This document shows, in pieces, positions 1,736-10,345 of a DNA stretch of 25,892 bases. The translations under genes were made by a program, and so were the position numbers. How positions within the stretch are numbered: the first letter of the stretch is position 1; every line of letters begins with the position of its first letter. The notes beneath the pieces were generated by a model, which saw only the letters and a list, made by a program, of their open reading frames with translations, did not search any database and was not told where the DNA came from. The DNA is from a virus: positions 3,044 through 28,935 of IMG/VR virus record IMGVR_UViG_3300030103_000999; one strand, given 5' to 3'.

Positions 1736-1941
1736 TTAGGCCATTCCCCTTTTTTATAACCACGCACTTCGGCTATGCCTGCGGAGCCTCTGGGTTTGAG
1801 GTTGGAACAAAATGCTTTGGCTACATCGTAGCTCAGTCCTGTCATTTCAGATAATTCTTTAGCTGCTGTCTCTCGGGAAGCGTATCCAGTTGCACGTTCT
1901 TCCATAAGTTTAGTTATCTTTTTGGGGTCAACGTCAGCCAT
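1726..1941 (-). CDS. small basic protein with possible HTH, 71 aa
   Basis: It starts 28 bases inside the end of the SNF2-type helicase gene, so the two form a coupled minus-strand pair. The middle (SRETAAKELSEMTGLSYDVAK) looks like helix-turn-helix, and the C-terminus is rich in Lys and Arg and ends in KKK, both consistent with nucleic-acid binding. An AGGAG lies more than ten bases before the ATG, with a purine-rich AAGAGA closer to it. The stop is one base beyond the stem of the opposing terminator. No family is recognised; a helper of the helicase is only a guess from its position. Confidence 0.6.
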   Translation of the reverse strand: MADVDPKKITKLMEERATGYASRETAAKELSEMTGLSYDVAKAFCSNLKPRGSAGIAEVRGYKKGEWPKKK

Positions 1942-3377
1942 TCTCTTGCTTCTTCTCCTAATACTCTGGCTCCGATGTCGATCTTGTTGCGAAGAGCTTC
2001 AACAATCTTCTCGTCAATCGTACCTTCGGATATCAGATCTATGTATGTCACGTTATTCTTTTGACCAATGCGGTGTGCCCGATCTTCAGACTGGATTCGT
2101 GTCTCCAAGTTAAAGTCATTGGCATAATATACCACGAGGTTTGCCTCAGTCAAAGTCAATCCGTATCCGGCGGTGGCAGGATTGCCTACAAAGAACCGTA
2201 GTTTGGATCTGTTCTGAAAGTCTTGGACAATCTGATTGCGTTCATCGTCTGTCGTGTCACCGTAGTATGCCGCAGCTGAACCTTCTCCGTACTCTTTGTT
2301 CAACATCTCTGTGATCTTGATGATGTCGTAACGGAATCGTGACCAGATGATTGCTTTGCCGTCGTGCTCGTCCATGATTTCTTTGAGTGCATCCATCCGG
2401 CGTGACGGAAAGTATTTCATTTCACCGTCGTCCGTCTTGATATGTCCAGACATGACCTGTTGAATGCGTAACATCTGGGTAATCACGGCAGGTGCAGACA
2501 CAAGTTCGCCGTCTTCAAACATCAGCATGGCTACTTGCTGTAGCTGAGTGTACATCTTGATCTGTTCATCCGTCAGCGTGACATACCTAGCGGTGTAGAC
2601 TTTCTCGGGTAGATCCAAACAGTCCTTCTTTAATACACGGAAGGAAAACTGGTCGATCTTTTCTGTTAGTTCATCGAGGTTTTTGTAGCCGACGACCTGC
2701 TGAAACGAATGTGCACCCATGGTGCGGCGTTGCACAACGGCGTATCTGCCTTGGAATGTATAGAAAGATTCGTGGCCCAAGAGTCCCGGTCTGAGGAACT
2801 CGGTCTGCGAATAAATATCCAGAGGACTTTTTGTAATTGGAGACCCTGTCAAGAGTCTTCTGTACTTGAACCCCGCTGCGATCTTCATTAAAGATTTACT
2901 GCGCTTGGCCTTATGGTTTTTAATGGTGGTGCTTTCATCGATTGCTATCAGGCCGTTGGCCCCAAGCGCACGAGCCATCCACTCCCCTGCTGTCTGACCT
3001 TTCTTTGTAGAGAAAGCCTCGATGTTCATGACGAAGATTGTCAGCCCATCAAACTTATCCTTGACGGATCGCATTTCTTCCTGTTGTTTTTTATTAGGAG
3101 AGGAGACCCACCGAATCATACGATACGGTACATCATCAGACATATGCTCTGGGATTTCTTTGGTAACCCAGTTTCGATAGACACCCTTCGGTGCGAGAAC
3201 CAAGGCGAAGTTTATCTGTCCATTGAGGAACAACAAACCCAGGTTGTCGATCAGAACTTTGGACTTACCAGTTCCCATCTCCATGAATAGACCGAACTCT
3301 TGTCGGTGCCAACCTTTCTCCAATGCTTGGCGCTGATGGTCGAACGGTTTTATTTTAAAATTGTACTTGACAGTCAT
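1914..3377 (-). CDS. SNF2-type superfamily 2 DNA helicase/translocase, 487 aa
   Basis: All hallmarks of a Snf2-like ATPase are visible. The Walker A is MEMGTGKS (about residues 32-39), motif II is Asp-Glu-Ser-Thr (about 147-150) where DEAH or DEAD is usual, motif III is LLTGSP (about 175-180), and the C-terminal RecA lobe ends with motifs V and VI (GYGLTLTEA and QSEDRAHRIGQ, about 404-439). Such enzymes move along double-stranded DNA using ATP; phage members are often linked to replication or recombination. The chosen start is the ATG at 3377, five bases after a perfect GGAGGT; a GTG at 3380 is too close to it. The gene runs opposite to its neighbours and has its own candidate promoter at 3399-3427. 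Confidence 0.93.
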   Translation of the reverse strand: MTVKYNFKIKPFDHQRQALEKGWHRQEFGLFMEMGTGKSKVLIDNLGLLFLNGQINFALVLAPKGVYRNWVTKEIPEHMSDDVPYRMIRWVSSPNKKQQEEMRSVKDKFDGLTIFVMNIEAFSTKKGQTAGEWMARALGANGLIAIDESTTIKNHKAKRSKSLMKIAAGFKYRRLLTGSPITKSPLDIYSQTEFLRPGLLGHESFYTFQGRYAVVQRRTMGAHSFQQVVGYKNLDELTEKIDQFSFRVLKKDCLDLPEKVYTARYVTLTDEQIKMYTQLQQVAMLMFEDGELVSAPAVITQMLRIQQVMSGHIKTDDGEMKYFPSRRMDALKEIMDEHDGKAIIWSRFRYDIIKITEMLNKEYGEGSAAAYYGDTTDDERNQIVQDFQNRSKLRFFVGNPATAGYGLTLTEANLVVYYANDFNLETRIQSEDRAHRIGQKNNVTYIDLISEGTIDEKIVEALRNKIDIGARVLGEEAREWLTLTPKR

Positions 3378-3398
3378 CACATACCTCCACTATAGTCC

Positions 3399-3453: not shown

Positions 3454-4014
3454 ATGGATGATATTTTTGAAGACTACTTCGACGACGGAAAGGCTCTTTC
3501 CAAAGTCGATACTGGAACAGGGAAACAATTAAGTGATCTTGTCCGCAAGCTGCGTAAAGTTGAAGATCAAATAGCTGACGCAGAACAATACTTGAAAGCT
3601 GTCAAGAACGAGAAGCACAAGCTTTCAACTGAAAACATTCCGGCACTTATGGATGAAATGGGTATGGATCGAGTAGACGTGGACGGGTTGACTGTCACAC
3701 GTAAAATGATCGTACATGCATCGATTCCATCAGAGCGCAAGGAAGAAGCCTTTGCTTGGCTACGTGAGAACGGGTTGGATGACATCATCAAGAATGATGT
3801 GACGTGTTCTTTCGGGAAGGGCGAAGACAATGTAGCAGGGGATGTCGTTGGTCTCTTGCAGGAGCGCGGCTTTGATCCAAAGACCAAGACGCACGTTCAC
3901 CCATCCACGTTGAAAGCGTTTGTTAGAGAACGTGTAACGGATGGTAAACCAATCGACCTGGATATGTTCGGGGCATACATCAACAACGCAGCAGAAATAC
4001 GGAGGAAAGCGTAA
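3454..4014 (+). CDS. coiled-coil hypothetical protein of the replication block, 186 aa
   Basis: AGGAG lies eight bases before the ATG. The N-terminus is very acidic (MDDIFEDYFDDG). Residues about 22-60 form a long charged helix with a coiled-coil-like pattern (LSDLVRKLRKVEDQIADAEQYL), followed by a compact alpha/beta part with strands around DRVDVDGLTVTRKMIVHASI. The stop overlaps the next gene's ATG (TAATG), so it is coupled to the probable ssDNA-binding protein. The position suggests a replication or recombination accessory factor, perhaps an SSB partner. I do not recognise the family, and no catalytic motif is evident. Confidence 0.75.
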   Translation: MDDIFEDYFDDGKALSKVDTGTGKQLSDLVRKLRKVEDQIADAEQYLKAVKNEKHKLSTENIPALMDEMGMDRVDVDGLTVTRKMIVHASIPSERKEEAFAWLRENGLDDIIKNDVTCSFGKGEDNVAGDVVGLLQERGFDPKTKTHVHPSTLKAFVRERVTDGKPIDLDMFGAYINNAAEIRRKA

Positions 4015-4826
4015 TGGCGAATGCAGTAGCGAAAACAAAAGGTGTGGAAGTCAGCACCGATGTATTAGACGATATCTTTGAAACCGCAGGTGACGGCTCA
4101 TCTTATGATAGTTCAGAATTGCAGATTCCTTTTATAAGGATTGCACAAGCCATGTCACCACAACTTAATAAAAAGAAGCCTGAGTATATTGAGGGATGTT
4201 CTCAAGGAGACATCTATAATACGGTGACTGGTCAGTATTGGGACGGTGAAGAAGGTATTGTTATTATCCCTTGTTTTCAAACCACAAAGTATTTGGAGTT
4301 TATTCCACGCGATCAAGGCGGCGGATTCAAAGGAGAGATCCCTGTAAACAATCCAATTATTACAAAAGCTAAGAGAGAAGGGTCGAAGGAGATACTTCCA
4401 AACGGCAACGAATTGGTTAAGTCAGACCAACATTACTGCTTGGTGGTTGAGGAAGATGGTTCGTTTCAACCTGCGGTGGTTGACATGAAGTCTAGCCAAT
4501 TGAAGATAAGCCGTCGTTGGAAAACTCAAATCACAATACAAAAGGTCAAGCACCCTAAAACAGGGGAGTTAGTTAGACCTGCGGTGTACGCTACGATGTG
4601 GCGATTAACGACCACAGAAGAGTCCAATGAGCAAGGTACGTGGAACAATTACACCATTTTAAAAGAAGCTCTTGTATCCAACCGTGATCTATTGATGGAA
4701 GCGAAAGCTTTCAAAGAGTCGATCATGGCGGGTGAAGTTAAGGCTGCTGCTGATCCAGATCATACCTCCACGGGTAGTTCGGATGTGGATGAGGATGTGG
4801 ATGAGGATAACGAAATCCCATTTTAA
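4014..4826 (+). CDS. probable phage single-stranded DNA-binding protein, 270 aa
   Basis: GGAGG lies eight bases before the ATG. The body (about residues 30-215) is predicted to be rich in beta strands with several Trp, Tyr and Phe residues, as expected for an OB-type ssDNA binder. It is followed by a Ser/Asp-rich linker and an acidic tail ending in DEDNEIPF. The last six residues closely match the tip of bacterial SSB (DDDIPF in E. coli), which binds many host repair and replication proteins. It lies just before the primase, in line with a replication role. The body itself is not matched to a named family; the call rests on the tail, the composition and the neighbours. Confidence 0.6.
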   Translation: MANAVAKTKGVEVSTDVLDDIFETAGDGSSYDSSELQIPFIRIAQAMSPQLNKKKPEYIEGCSQGDIYNTVTGQYWDGEEGIVIIPCFQTTKYLEFIPRDQGGGFKGEIPVNNPIITKAKREGSKEILPNGNELVKSDQHYCLVVEEDGSFQPAVVDMKSSQLKISRRWKTQITIQKVKHPKTGELVRPAVYATMWRLTTTEESNEQGTWNNYTILKEALVSNRDLLMEAKAFKESIMAGEVKAAADPDHTSTGSSDVDEDVDEDNEIPF

Positions 4827-4836
4827 GTAGCCTTTC

Positions 4837-4883
4837 GAGGGTGGCATCAGACTTGGCGAAAACCTTGCACGTTGACCACCCTC
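4837..4883 (+). repeat. inverted repeat between the SSB-like and primase genes
   Basis: GAGGGTGG (4837-4844) and CCACCCTC (4876-4883) form a perfect eight-base stem with a 31-base loop, followed by ACTTTACTT. The 81-base gap that holds it is one of the few in the plus-strand block. It could be a weak terminator or attenuator, an RNA structure limiting primase expression, or a protein-binding site; the loop is long for a terminator. Confidence 0.45.
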
Positions 4884-4907
4884 ACTTTACTTCAACAGGA
4901 GCCAAGC

Positions 4908-6443
4908 ATGTCATTAGCACAGAGAATGCTTGCGGCCTTTGAGGGATCAAAGGTTGCATACGGCACGACTACAGTAGGAAAGATTGGTCGCAGTGGTAAA
5001 GCTGAAGCGGACAGTCGCATTGTACGTGAGCCGTTGACAGAAAAAATCATGCAGGGACACATAGAGGGCAAGCAGGGTATCGGGGCTATCCCGATCAACG
5101 AGGAAAACAAATGCAAGTGGGGAGCGTTGGACATAGATATCTATGACCTTGATCACAACGAACTCCAAAAAAGAATAAACAAGCAGAAGCTACCTTTGCT
5201 ACATTGCCGCTCCAAATCTGGTGGAGCACATCTCTATTTGTTCTTGGAAAGATTCGAACCTGCAAACGTGGTTCGAGAATACTTACAGGAGATGGCAGTA
5301 TCTCTTGGGCATAGCGGTTGTGAGATCTTCCCGAAGCAAGACAAGATCCTTGCTGACCGGGGTGATGTGGGCAACTTTATAAACCTACCGTACTTTGATG
5401 CAGAGTTACCGCAACGGTACTCCTTTAATGACAAGGTGGAAGCGGTGGAACTGGATGAGTTCCTTGACCAGATCGACAAGAAAAGAGTTAAACTCTCAAG
5501 TCTAGAGAAGCTGCGGACCAAGAAGCAACGCAAACAGTTTGCGGATGGGCCAGTATGCATGGAGCATTTGTTTCGTGACGGACCCAACTCGGAAGACCGC
5601 AACAAGAAACTGTTCATGGCAGGGGTATACAGTCGGCTGAAACATACGGATGACTGGAAGCAACAGATGGAAACGATGAACCATCAACTGTTTACTACGC
5701 CCCTCGATGCCAAGGAAATGTTGGCTCTTCAGAAAAGTCTGGAGCGGAAAGAATACTTCTATACCTGCGAACAGGAACCGTTCAAGAGTTACTGCGATAA
5801 AGAACTGTGCATCTCTAGGCGATACGGAATCGGAGACGATACAGAACAAGCAGTGAATATCGGAAACCTTCTGATCCAGTTATCGGAACCACGCCTGTAC
5901 TTCCTGACAGTGCAAGGTGAGAGGATCCAGATTAACTCTGAGCAACTACAGAACCAGACGCTCTTTCAACGCGCATGTATAGAACAGATACAGGTCGCTC
6001 CTCCGATCATGAAACCAAAGGCATGGCAGGCGTTACTGCGGAAGCTGCTGACAGAATCCACCAAGCAAGAAGTGCCAGAGGAACTGACCCTGACTGGGGA
6101 GTTCAAGGAATTGTTACGCATATACTGCACCAGTAAGATCAGAGCCATGCACCCAGAGGAGATGATCGCGGGTAAACCGTGGACGGACAACGAGGGGTAT
6201 ACCTCTTTCACGATAGCAGGTTTGATGGAGTTCTTGCACAACCGTCGCTTCAAAGGTTTTACCAGAGCACAGGTGCAGGAGATTTTAAAACAAATGAATA
6301 GTGATCAAGAGTGCCATGGGCACAGAGCAATAAATAAAGAAGACGGATCAAGGACCACGATTCGAGTTTGGTGGGTTCCTGCTTTTGAAAATTTGGAAGT
6401 GGATCTGCCAATACAGGAGATAGATAATGACATACCGTTCTAG
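4908..6443 (+). CDS. archaeo-eukaryotic-type (TOTE-like) DNA primase with SSB-like tail, 511 aa
   Basis: The N-terminal domain has the AEP primase signature: the metal-binding Asp-x-Asp in WGALDIDIYD (about residues 71-80), SKSGGAHLYLF with the conserved His (102-112), and the following block EIFPKQ plus GNFINLPYF (about 139-163) seen in TOTE-type primases. Such enzymes make primers from rNTPs or dNTPs. A cysteine group (YTC, SYC, ELC, about residues 286-306) may bind a metal. The C-terminal part looks like helical/winged-helix sequence, and the last six residues are DNDIPF, an SSB-type tip. The start is the ATG at 4908, six bases after AGGAG; an in-frame TTG at 4872 lacks a ribosome site and overlaps the inverted repeat. 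No helicase domain is fused. Confidence 0.85.
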   Translation: MSLAQRMLAAFEGSKVAYGTTTVGKIGRSGKAEADSRIVREPLTEKIMQGHIEGKQGIGAIPINEENKCKWGALDIDIYDLDHNELQKRINKQKLPLLHCRSKSGGAHLYLFLERFEPANVVREYLQEMAVSLGHSGCEIFPKQDKILADRGDVGNFINLPYFDAELPQRYSFNDKVEAVELDEFLDQIDKKRVKLSSLEKLRTKKQRKQFADGPVCMEHLFRDGPNSEDRNKKLFMAGVYSRLKHTDDWKQQMETMNHQLFTTPLDAKEMLALQKSLERKEYFYTCEQEPFKSYCDKELCISRRYGIGDDTEQAVNIGNLLIQLSEPRLYFLTVQGERIQINSEQLQNQTLFQRACIEQIQVAPPIMKPKAWQALLRKLLTESTKQEVPEELTLTGEFKELLRIYCTSKIRAMHPEEMIAGKPWTDNEGYTSFTIAGLMEFLHNRRFKGFTRAQVQEILKQMNSDQECHGHRAINKEDGSRTTIRVWWVPAFENLEVDLPIQEIDNDIPF

Positions 6444-6627
6444 TTTTATGAAAGCCAAAGACGTGGCGGAGTGGCTCGGCGTCTCCGAGTCTGCGATATA
6501 CAAGTGGGTAAACGAGGGCGACTTTCCCAAGCCATACAAGTTAGGCAATGCGGACGCACTACGTGCAGCGAGTCGGTGGGATCGGGAAGAAATCGAACAG
6601 TGGTTGGAGAAGCGTCGTGATACCTAA
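6427..6627 (+). CDS. AlpA/MerR-type helix-turn-helix protein, 66 aa
   Basis: The segment MKAKDVAEWLGVSESAIYKWVNEGDFPKPYKLG (residues about 8-41 in full) is the classic short winged HTH of AlpA-like prophage regulators and excisionases, followed by a Trp and a helix (WDREEIEQWLEKRR). AGGAG lies seven bases before the ATG at 6427, which is inside the last codons of the primase; an internal ATG at 6448 is less well placed. The gene is wedged between primase and helicase with overlaps on both sides. It may regulate the replication operon or work as a recombination directionality factor, although no integrase is visible here. Confidence 0.8.
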   Translation: MTYRSSFMKAKDVAEWLGVSESAIYKWVNEGDFPKPYKLGNADALRAASRWDREEIEQWLEKRRDT

Positions 6628-8146
6628 TGCAACCCTCATACTAGGGCCACCTGGGTGCGGTAAGACTTATACTTTGATCGAAAGAGTACAAGCCAAGCTA
6701 CAAGAGGGTGTACATCCGTCTCGTATTGGTGTTGTGTCTTTTACAACTAAAGCAATCAACGAGTTTATTGATCGAGCCTGTTCTAAGTTCAATCTAACTC
6801 GGAATGATTTCCCACACTTTAGAACCTTACACGCGACGGGATATCACGGGTTAGGTCTACAGAGGGGGGATGTCATGGGCCGCGAGGATTATGCTCGTCT
6901 CGGTTCCATGTTGGGGGTGGCGTTTGATGGAGCGGATGCCACCTCCATTGACGACGGAGTTGCGATACCTTCGATAGGAGGATCGGGAGCCAAGTACCTA
7001 CAACTAATCATGCGGTCTGTCTATCGGGAGTCCACCTTGGAGTTTGAATACAACTACGAGGAAGATCACAACCTAGACTTCAACAAGCTAGTCCAGATCG
7101 ACAAGCAGATCAAAGAGTACAAGTCCAAGACAAACCGTCTGGATTTTGCCGACATGATCTTGAAGTACATTGAGATTGTGGAACCACCGAATCTGGATCT
7201 GTTGATTGTGGACGAGGCACAAGACCTGACACCGTTGCAGTGGACGATGGTGGAGAAGATGGCAGAGTATGCCGACGAAGTGTTGATTGCAGGGGATGAC
7301 GATCAGGCAATCCACCGTTGGACTTCTGTGGACGTTCAGAGGTTCATTAAGTCTTCAGATAACATAGAGGTGCTGAACAGATCGTTTCGCTTACCACGGA
7401 GCATCTGGGAGCTTTCTATGCGTATCTCTAGGAAGATACCAGGTAGACTAGAGAAAGAGTTCTTTCCAAAGCAAGCGGAAGGTAGGGTCACGACAGTGGG
7501 TAGCCTGTGGCAGTTGCCATTGGACAGTGGGTCATGGACTATCATGGCTCGAACCAATAGCTTTGTGAACGATATAGCAGAGCACCTTGAGGAATCAGGA
7601 TACTTCTACAGTCGGAAAGGGAAGTGGTCGATCTCGGAAAAGAAACTCAACGCCATGTCTGTGTGGAAAGATATCACCACGGGTAAGGGTGTGTATGTCG
7701 GACGAGTCAAACAGATGTACGAAGTCGTGCCGAAGACGGGTAAGGGGGCGGTTGTCAAGCGTGGTTCTATGAAACTACTTGAAGCAGCAGGTAGCGAAGA
7801 ACTACTTACATATGATACACTGGTCAAAGAGTTCGGACTACTGGCCCTTATTACTACGTCCGAGTTGGATATCGTTAAGCTATCTGAGCAGGAAAAGATT
7901 TACATTCGCTCCATACAAAGGCGCGGAGAAAGTATTTATCAGCAACCAAGGATCAAACTATCTACGATCCATGCCATGAAAGGAGGAGAAGATACAAACG
8001 TAGCGGTGTACTTGGGTTCCACAAGAAACTGTGTGGAGAGCAAACACCCTGAAGACGAACATCGGATATTCTATGTGGCAATAACAAGAGCAAAAGAAAA
8101 TCTATATCTCATAGAGTCCGACAAATCATACAGGTATGACATATGA
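6617..8146 (+). CDS. UvrD/Rep-like superfamily 1 DNA helicase, 509 aa
   Basis: All SF1A motifs are present in order: Walker A GPPGCGKT (about residues 10-17), motif Ia VVSFTTKA (about 39-46), DEAQD (about 199-203), GDDDQAIHRW (about 226-235), NRSFRLPRS (motif IV), LSTIHAMKGGE (motif V, about 448-458) and FYVAITRAKENLYL (motif VI). It should unwind DNA 3' to 5' with ATP, and may serve as the fork or repair helicase of the phage. The protein is shorter than E. coli UvrD (about 720 aa), mainly in the accessory subdomains. The start is a GTG at 6617, seven bases after GGAG and overlapping the AlpA-like gene; the more distant ATG at 6548 would run through that gene. The stop overlaps the next ATG. 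Confidence 0.92.
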   Translation: MIPNATLILGPPGCGKTYTLIERVQAKLQEGVHPSRIGVVSFTTKAINEFIDRACSKFNLTRNDFPHFRTLHATGYHGLGLQRGDVMGREDYARLGSMLGVAFDGADATSIDDGVAIPSIGGSGAKYLQLIMRSVYRESTLEFEYNYEEDHNLDFNKLVQIDKQIKEYKSKTNRLDFADMILKYIEIVEPPNLDLLIVDEAQDLTPLQWTMVEKMAEYADEVLIAGDDDQAIHRWTSVDVQRFIKSSDNIEVLNRSFRLPRSIWELSMRISRKIPGRLEKEFFPKQAEGRVTTVGSLWQLPLDSGSWTIMARTNSFVNDIAEHLEESGYFYSRKGKWSISEKKLNAMSVWKDITTGKGVYVGRVKQMYEVVPKTGKGAVVKRGSMKLLEAAGSEELLTYDTLVKEFGLLALITTSELDIVKLSEQEKIYIRSIQRRGESIYQQPRIKLSTIHAMKGGEDTNVAVYLGSTRNCVESKHPEDEHRIFYVAITRAKENLYLIESDKSYRYDI

Positions 8147-8427
8147 AAAGAGATGAATATTTAGATACAGCCAAGAAGCTAATCAATGGTAGCAGAGCCA
8201 AGGACTATGGTGATGCGAAAGATAACTTCGATAGGATAGCCACTGGTTGGAATGTGATTGTTCAAGATGCATTGAGCACACACGGAAGAATAACAGCCAA
8301 GCATGTTGCGTTGATGATGGACTGGGTAAAGACTTGCCGTCTGTTGGAGACTATCGACCACAAGGATTCGTGGATCGACAAGTGTGGTTACAGCGCATTG
8401 GGGGCTGAGTTCGAAGATGAAAAATAA
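8143..8427 (+). CDS. DUF6378-like small phage protein, 94 aa
   Basis: The pattern AKDYGDAKDNFDRIATGWNV, then ITAKHVALMMDWVKTCRL and later DSWIDKCGYSALG is the recognisable signature of the DUF6378 family, common in phages and of unknown biochemical role. The conserved YGD, NF and the Asp before the final GY(S/A)A helix are all present. The all-helical pattern recalls nucleotide-pyrophosphatase (MazG-like) folds, but that relation is an inference. The ATG overlaps the helicase stop (ATGA), and the last codons overlap the polymerase start, so it is coupled to replication genes. There is no good Shine-Dalgarno. Confidence 0.75.
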   Translation: MKRDEYLDTAKKLINGSRAKDYGDAKDNFDRIATGWNVIVQDALSTHGRITAKHVALMMDWVKTCRLLETIDHKDSWIDKCGYSALGAEFEDEK

Positions 8428-10345
8428 AGGGCTTGATAAAGACAGTGTCATTGCTGCTCAGATGAACCAAGGAAAAGAACTTGCTTGGAACATCCCATCA
8501 GAGTTTCCAGACCTGACGGGCTACAAGCAGATCGCCATTGACCTTGAGACATGTGACCCGAACCTGACTACGCTTGGCCCTGGATGGGTGCGTAAGGATG
8601 GGTACATCGTAGGCATAGCCGTAGCTGCCGGAGACTGGGAAGGATACTATCCCATCCGTCATGAGAACGGTCACAACATGGATGCGAGGATTGCGCTCAA
8701 GTGGCTCAAGAAACAGATGGCAACACCACACATAGACAAGATCATGCACAACGCCACCTATGATCTGGGTTGGCTACGTGCCGAGGGTGTAAAGGTAGAG
8801 GGTCGTGTCATCGATACGATGATTACGGGTGCCGTAGTGGACGAGAACCGTTGGTCATACAGCCTAAACAACCTTGGTCGTGATTACCTCGATGAACGCA
8901 AGGATGAGAAACTCCTACGTGTAGCCGCAGCGGAGTGGGGCTTTGATCCCAAAGCTGAGATGTACAGGTTGCCTCCTCAGTTTGTCGGACGGTACGCCGA
9001 ACAGGATGCAGGTATGACCCTGCGTTTGTGGGAGCGACTGAAGATAGAGTTAGAGAAGCAAGACCTGTGGAACATCTGGAACTTGGAGACTAGCTTGATA
9101 CCTATGATGTGTGACATGCGTCAGCTAGGTGTGCGTGTGGATCTGGACAAGGCGGAGCAAGCCAAGAAGTTTTTTAAAAACAAAAGCCAAGAACTGAAGG
9201 ACGAGATCTACCGCCAGACTAAGGTTAAAGTTGAACCATGGGCTGCGTCTTCTGTGGCTATGGTGTTTGATGAACTGGGTGTGTCGTATCCTACAAGTGA
9301 GGATCAGCAAGAAGATATGTTCCGCAAGAGCGGCGGTGTGCCGTCGTTTACCAAGCAATGGTTGTTGGCACATGACCACCCTGTAGCACAGATGATTGTA
9401 AAGCTGCGCGAGTTCGACAAAGCAGACAGTAGCTTTATCGACTCCATCCTAAAGCACGAGCACAATGGTCGGATTCATTGCGAGTTCCATCAGCTACGTT
9501 CTGATGACGGAGGCACTGTGACAGGTAGGTTTTCTAGTTCAAACCCAAACCTTCAGCAGATTCCGGCACGAGATCCCGAGATCAAGAAACTGATCCGTGG
9601 TTTGTTTATACCAGAGCAAGGGTGCAAGTGGGGGTCGTTTGACTACTCAAGCCAAGAGCCAAGGTTACTGGTGCACTTTGCAGCAAGCTTGAAGGGTGAC
9701 TACAAGCACCAGATTGTCGATAAGATTGTGGAGGAGTACCACACAGGTGATGTCGATCTACACCAGATGGTGGCTGACCTCGCAGGAATAAGCCGTAAGG
9801 AAGCCAAAGTGGTAAACCTGGGCATCATGTACGGAATGGGCAAAGGTAAACTAGCAGCGCAACTGGACATCCCTACGGACGAAGCAGGGGAACTGTTGGA
9901 GACACACCGAGAGAAAGTTCCTTTTGTTAAGAACCTTGCAGAACTAGCGTCAATGCAAGCAGAGAAAACAGGGCAGATCAGAACCCTGTTGGGTAGACGG
10001 TGTCGCTTCCATTTGTGGGAGCCTCGATCCTTTGGATACAAGAAACCGCTACCGTATGAGGAGGCCATGAAAACATATGGTCAACCTTTAAGAAGAGCCT
10101 TTACTTACAAGGCGTTAAACAAATTGATCCAAGGTTCAGCTGCGGATCAAACTAAAAAAGCTATGGCAGATTGCTACAAAGAAGGACTTTTGCCTATGCT
10201 AACAGTGCACGATGAGTTATGCTTCTCAGTAGAGGGCGACGACCAAGCGCACAACATCATAATGGAAAATGGGTTGTCGGATGTCTTGAGAGTCCCCTCT
10301 AAAGTAGACGATGAACTCAAAGATAATTGGGGAGAAATCGAATGA
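8417..10345 (+). CDS. polA: family A DNA polymerase (PolA) with 3'-5' exonuclease, 642 aa
   Basis: The N-terminal proofreading domain has all three motifs: AIDLET (Asp42, Glu44), NATYD (Asn112, Asp116) and YAEQD (Tyr193, Asp197). The polymerase domain has TGRFSSSNPNLQQIP (about 369-383), motif A FDYSSQEPR (Asp409), motif B RKEAKVVNLGIMYG (460-473) and motif C VHDE (about 597-600). No 5'-nuclease domain is fused, as is usual for phages. The residue equivalent to E. coli Phe762 is Leu468, and motif A reads SSQEPR where SQIELR is usual. The start is the ATG at 8417 overlapping the previous stop; a GTG at 8384 is less likely, and neither has a strong ribosome site. Confidence 0.95.
   Translation: MKNKGLDKDSVIAAQMNQGKELAWNIPSEFPDLTGYKQIAIDLETCDPNLTTLGPGWVRKDGYIVGIAVAAGDWEGYYPIRHENGHNMDARIALKWLKKQMATPHIDKIMHNATYDLGWLRAEGVKVEGRVIDTMITGAVVDENRWSYSLNNLGRDYLDERKDEKLLRVAAAEWGFDPKAEMYRLPPQFVGRYAEQDAGMTLRLWERLKIELEKQDLWNIWNLETSLIPMMCDMRQLGVRVDLDKAEQAKKFFKNKSQELKDEIYRQTKVKVEPWAASSVAMVFDELGVSYPTSEDQQEDMFRKSGGVPSFTKQWLLAHDHPVAQMIVKLREFDKADSSFIDSILKHEHNGRIHCEFHQLRSDDGGTVTGRFSSSNPNLQQIPARDPEIKKLIRGLFIPEQGCKWGSFDYSSQEPRLLVHFAASLKGDYKHQIVDKIVEEYHTGDVDLHQMVADLAGISRKEAKVVNLGIMYGMGKGKLAAQLDIPTDEAGELLETHREKVPFVKNLAELASMQAEKTGQIRTLLGRRCRFHLWEPRSFGYKKPLPYEEAMKTYGQPLRRAFTYKALNKLIQGSAADQTKKAMADCYKEGLLPMLTVHDELCFSVEGDDQAHNIIMENGLSDVLRVPSKVDDELKDNWGEIE

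Follow-up and report, generated by a model that had tools for sequence, protein, structure and literature searches.

In bacteria, the tip DDDIPF at the C-terminus of the single-stranded DNA-binding protein (SSB) is a docking peptide with its own interactome. The DNA studied here (the window, 25.9 kb out of a 28.9-kb virus record) raises the question of why two neighbouring genes of a phage replication module, one for an SSB-like protein and the other for a primase, should both end in a tip of this kind, and what the two tips would serve. An initial sequence-only reading had placed DNEIPF and DNDIPF at these gene ends and both are exact in the DNA: the tip of the SSB-like protein is encoded by GATAACGAAATCCCATTT and followed by the stop codon TAA (4824-4826), while that of the primase is encoded by GATAATGACATACCGTTC and followed by TAG (6441-6443).

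Gene organization and protein identities

The replication module is arranged in the order DUF7307, SSB-like protein, AEP primase, AlpA-type HTH protein, UvrD-like helicase, a small gene and family A polymerase (Table 1), with a SNF2 helicase (1914-3380) on the opposite strand. No third tip-bearing protein was found among the long ORFs of the module. ATG 4908 is the probable start codon of the primase: AGGAG lies directly 5' of it, and all full-length relatives align from this position. The AlpA-type HTH gene has a second ATG in frame, at 6448, from which translation may really begin, but it is position 6427 that is preceded by a Shine-Dalgarno-like AGGAG.

Table 1. Tip-bearing genes and neighbouring features of the replication module (positions in the window).
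Feature	Positions	Strand	Remarks
DUF7307 (phrog_2378) gene	3454..4014	+	Upstream in module; tail used as control, no match to the tips
SSB-like protein, 270 aa	4014..4826	+	PF23977 (Pam3_Gp34) / phrog_2402; core predicted OB-fold-like, tail acidic and disordered
Tip DNEIPF, C-terminus of SSB-like protein	4806..4823	+	DNA read directly; conserved in relatives
AEP-type primase, 511 aa	4908..6443	+	PF22548 (AEP-TOTE) / phrog_21866; predicted fold similar to CAPP Prim-Pol domain
Tip DNDIPF, C-terminus of primase	6423..6440	+	DNA read directly; [ND][DE]xPF in 42/42 distinct clade sequences
AlpA/HTH_17 gene	6427..6627	+	ATG inside primase tip (translational overlap); second, partial constraint on tip codons
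UvrD-like helicase	6548..8146	+	Possible partner; its tail served as a control
Family A DNA polymerase with 3'-5' exonuclease domain	8384..10345	+	Possible docking partner, on the model of T7 gp5; its tail served as a control

In profile searches the primase matched PF22548 at 5.6e-15 and, over residues 4-507, phrog_21866 at 2.7e-88, and its AlphaFold2 model resembled the CAPP Prim-Pol 7nqf (Foldseek E 2.5e-10), as expected of an AEP Prim-Pol fold. The SSB-like protein matched phrog_2402 and PF23977 at 4.2e-64 and 1.7e-63, the former being a family of unknown function with more than 500 phage records. Its AlphaFold2 core has a mean pLDDT of 87 and is followed by a disordered acidic tail, in which 11 of the last 30 residues are Asp or Glu. 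By our own reading of the model, the order of strands and helices in the core is compatible with an OB fold. Foldseek matches to the PDB were weak and non-significant (best E 0.018), several of the top ones being SSBs and another PrgE, and a sequence search of solved structures gave no match. Against a viral library the strong matches were uncharacterised phage proteins, and the weaker ones included two proteins named SSB. The protein presumably binds ssDNA. Neither docking of a tip nor a pocket for it was seen in the AlphaFold2 monomers, in which both tips are of low confidence.

Conservation of the tips in the window's clade

The C-termini of homologues were compared, and within the window's clade, in which the primases are 59-100% identical, the tip was found to be conserved in both proteins. 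All 42 distinct primase ends finish in Pro-Phe, preceded in 41 of them by Ile or Val, and the Pro codon is CCA in 14, CCG in 11, CCC in 9 and CCT in 8; since all four codons are used, it is the protein that is conserved, not the DNA. Among 80 close loci, every complete primase carries the tip, down to about 60% primase identity, and so do all complete SSB-like proteins but one (L031, ending NEIPV). The hallmarks of an SSB C-terminal tip, namely acidic residues followed by Ile/Val/Leu-Pro-Phe-COOH and conservation among homologues, are thus present in this clade. Ends of the form [DEN][DE][IVL]PF occur in none of 326 other plus-strand ORFs of at least 150 aa from representative loci, and PF or PY ends in just one of them. 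Conservation, background rate and codon freedom together rule out a chance match of the two tips, which the sequence-only reading had already judged unlikely. A docking-type tip, common to the SSB-like protein and the primase and conserved in both, can be regarded as established at the level of sequence.

The ATG of the HTH gene (6427) overlaps the primase tip in 40 of the 42 clade sequences, lying over its Asn-Asp codons, and the final Phe is always TTC, so that the tip might be viewed as a by-product of the downstream gene's start codon and Pro-Phe as a coincidence. We consider this highly improbable. The overlap may hold the Asn/Asp-Asp/Glu residues, and perhaps the TTC codon, but not Pro, which is fixed with four codons although the overlapping frame varies (His, Leu, Pro or Arg). 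Two members of the clade (L060 and L063) lack the overlapping ATG and keep DEIPF, and where other lineages have a different downstream gene, the tip of the primase still matches that of the SSB-like protein. Overlap with the next gene is ruled out as the sole cause of the primase tip by the freedom of the Pro codon and by L060 and L063.

Joint change of the two tips across lineages

Beyond this clade, 470 primase loci were collected from viral and isolate genomes, 409 of them with both genes complete, and these formed 62 primase clusters at 70% identity, of which 60 had a usable pair of SSB-like protein and primase. Over these 60 lineages the tips take many forms besides IPF, including IV, II/IM, SPF, NY and EF, and those of one genome are alike. 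Given as primase/SSB, examples are IPF/IPF, ENIV/QDIV (pelagiphages), TDII/KSII, KSEF/SGEF (Acinetobacter phages), ESNY/DSNY and TPPPFV/KDIPFA. The mean BLOSUM62 score of the last three residues was 6.1 for tips of the same genome versus 0.5 after shuffling (60 clusters); none of 1000 shuffles scored as high (z 7.7), in a permutation that ignores relatedness.

Since relatives share tips, disjoint phylogenetic pairs were used as a tree-controlled test. On the primase tree, 20 pairs were informative, with 16 for matching within the own genome and 4 against (sign p 0.006, sign-flip p 0.003), and on the SSB tree 14 were for and 4 against (p 0.015 and 0.0008). L214 and L215 illustrate the pattern clearly on their own: their primases are 77% identical, and the tips read RSPF/PAPF in one versus GAFF/SAVF in the other. 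The tails of DUF7307, UvrD, PolA and SNF2 served as controls and showed no tip-matching signal (z -1.2 to 0.8 by permutation), nor did those of DUF7307, UvrD and PolA in tree-controlled pairs (p > 0.3), so a genome-wide effect of composition on tail matching is ruled out by the four control tails. A second cohort of 30 further loci from bacterial assemblies, analysed without tree correction, gave P 0.0001, with Y/Y, F/F and I/I matches. Joint evolution of the two tips is therefore well supported by the comparison of lineages.

Some lineages do not match, among them L294 (tips IPF and HF), L266 (EIF or EVF, and HF), HTVC023P, and Pan1 and R5C, in which the SSB-like protein ends IPF and the primase GEA. 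Primase homologues without the tip had been named in advance as evidence against a functional peptide, and they are confined to a few far relatives (Pan1, R5C and HTVC023P). R5C lacks the primase tip yet has a family A polymerase, and a search for the partner by way of the tip-lacking lineages did not discriminate among candidates. In 023Pt_psg01 (L084 955-3346) the SSB-like protein ends STPY and the primase SKTPYQIENF, that is, with the SSB-type TPY five residues inside the end and then a new ENF tip. The SSB-like proteins of L279, L306 and L310 have no recognisable tip; in L279 and L306 the primases end GDIPF/GDIPY and the SSB-like proteins ARRR/EQEE, so that here the SSB tip has apparently been lost and that of the primase retained. 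One further locus, L471 (LSSG01000033.1), is filed under a Thermoplasmatales archaeon MAG but carries an SSB-like gene, together with a primase 43% identical to that of pelagiphage HTVC027P, and is probably a misbinned phage contig.

Relationship to known systems

Phage T7, examined along with P-SSP7 as a control, offers the closest parallel. Its SSB, gp2.5, ends EDGDF and its primase-helicase, gp4, ends NDTDF, and in P-SSP7 the corresponding ends are DDF and TDF; since both T7 proteins end in DF, the view in the sequence-only reading that such a peptide is unexpected on a primase was too strong. The tails of gp4 bind basic patches on the gp5 polymerase, according to reviews (PMC12593628), and an effect of deleting the tail has been reported (PMC8835902). 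As in T7, the SSB and the priming enzyme of one genome carry like short acidic tips with an aromatic terminal residue, and the phage of the window also has a family A polymerase. Unlike T7, its SSB-like protein (phrog_2402) is unrelated to gp2.5 and its AEP primase to gp4; the primase is not DnaG-like and lacks a fused replicative helicase, and the tip of the clade has the bacterial IPF form. Profile searches placed the SSB-like protein and the primase in families other than those of T7 only. The system of the window works like that of T7 and is not a member of it.

The tips share residues and position with the bacterial SSB tip, and the tail of the SSB-like protein is likewise acidic and disordered; they differ in that the tip is also found on the primase and that relatives swap both tips for non-host forms. 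In bacteria, cross-talk between DnaG and SSB runs by way of the SSB tip (PMC5872125), but there DnaG binds the tip, whereas the primase of the window carries it. A precedent for private use of an SSB tip by a phage is SSB-Sak4 of HK620, where the tip NDYPPF of the phage SSB is needed by a phage partner (PMC5928155), although the tip is on the SSB only and the partner is a recombinase. No earlier report of a tip shared by SSB and primase outside T7 was found in the open-access literature.

A proposed shared docking peptide and its possible partners

From the joint change of their tips, it is reasonably probable that the SSB-like protein and the AEP primase dock by one and the same peptide onto a common partner, which is likely to be phage-encoded. 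Of the two functions that the sequence-only reading had put forward, a partner shared by phage SSB and primase is the one best supported. The peptide, present once on each protein, would be a flexible tail, acidic for the most part, with a hydrophobic last residue whose carboxylate is free. Both copies would bind the same pocket on the partner, which would allow the SSB-coated template strand to be passed along at the fork together with the primase and the partner. Because the two tips depart jointly from the host SSB tip, this pocket would most likely be phage-encoded and lineage-specific, and on the T7 model the phage DNA polymerase is the leading candidate to hold it. Binding by the tips, the sharing of a pocket, the protein that holds it and ssDNA binding by the SSB-like protein are all inferred.

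The other function suggested at the outset was that the tips copy the host SSB tip to recruit host SSB-binding proteins (PriA, RecO, RecQ, ExoI and chi). Both tips in the window's clade copy the bacterial SSB tip almost perfectly, and cross-binding of these IPF tips to host proteins is plausible. Host-type ends also occur on larger AEP primase-helicases (720-930 aa; AEP-TOTE/PriCT_1, several with DUF5906) of alphaproteobacterial genomes (Mesorhizobium and Rhodospirillaceae), in L517 (DEDIPF), L521 (NDEIPF), L524 (DEDLPF), L532 (DEDIPF) and L537 (DDDVPF); no phrog_2402 SSB was detected in the fetched stretches of these five loci. Acinetobacter phage SH-Ab 15497, moreover, has a third SSB (L573 11378-11677; 99 aa, phrog_18154) that ends in the host-type LDDDLPF. 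Tips that serve host SSB-binding proteins should, however, track the host SSB tip, and in related phages both have been swapped for forms unlike it (IV, II, KPVF and EF). Of 30 Pelagibacteraceae SSBs, all end in PF, whereas the pelagiphage tips are QDIV/ENIV (as in HTVC027P) and KSII/TDII (SSB/primase), both having moved away together, and in SH-Ab 15497 the SSB-like protein ends SGEF and the primase KSEF. The departure of the pelagiphage tips from the host PF and the tip on the third SSB of SH-Ab 15497 favour a phage-encoded pocket. As the main explanation, recruitment of host proteins is thus quite unlikely; for the IPF forms it is possible, without explaining the whole family.

A different location for the pocket, the SSB-like protein itself, would have the protein's own tail covering its DNA-binding groove and the primase tip docking there, which would bring the primase to SSB-coated DNA. 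This is a serious rival because the phrog_2402 SSB is what every matched case has in common, while the primases and polymerases differ in type. T7 supplies a precedent, in that Marintcheva and colleagues (cited in PMC5686142) are said to have reported in 2008 that ssDNA competes with the SSB tail for a single surface. The AlphaFold2 model, on the other hand, leaves the tail of the SSB-like protein disordered, and we regard this location as rather unlikely. A docking peptide for a separate, phage-encoded partner is preferred.

The same SSB family is also found beside other primase types. In Bordetella phage CN2 and Stenotrophomonas phage Bhz59 the SSB ends KPVF and a primase-helicase of another family KPPF, and in Rhizobium phage RHph_TM26 the corresponding ends are DPPF and DTPF; PB1 gives a weak match (SSB EEF, gp77 EDF). 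These four phages were found after the rule had been framed and are not a random choice. The polymerase of PB1 belongs to family C, so a genuine tip match in this phage would mean that the partner is not in every case a family A enzyme. On balance we lean slightly towards a general rule in which many phage lineages carry a private docking code on both SSB and the priming enzyme (primase or primase-helicase). A single phage pocket that co-evolves with the code would read it, and the code would change jointly in both proteins, away from the host tip. T7 would then be a single instance of this rule, which would have emerged with several unrelated types of primase. Such a rule for phage replisomes, one lineage-specific peptide on SSB and primase, has so far been known mainly from T7. 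It would predict replisome components that function only together with those of the same phage, and matching tips could provide a handle, from sequence only, for finding the partner and assigning a role to phrog_2402. Three primase-helicases of Rabinowitzvirinae and of a Rhizobium phage (L582 21175-23601, L583 22449-24878 and L585 10470-12830) are partly annotated as 'integrase', and their PPF/TPF tips match those of their SSB-like proteins.
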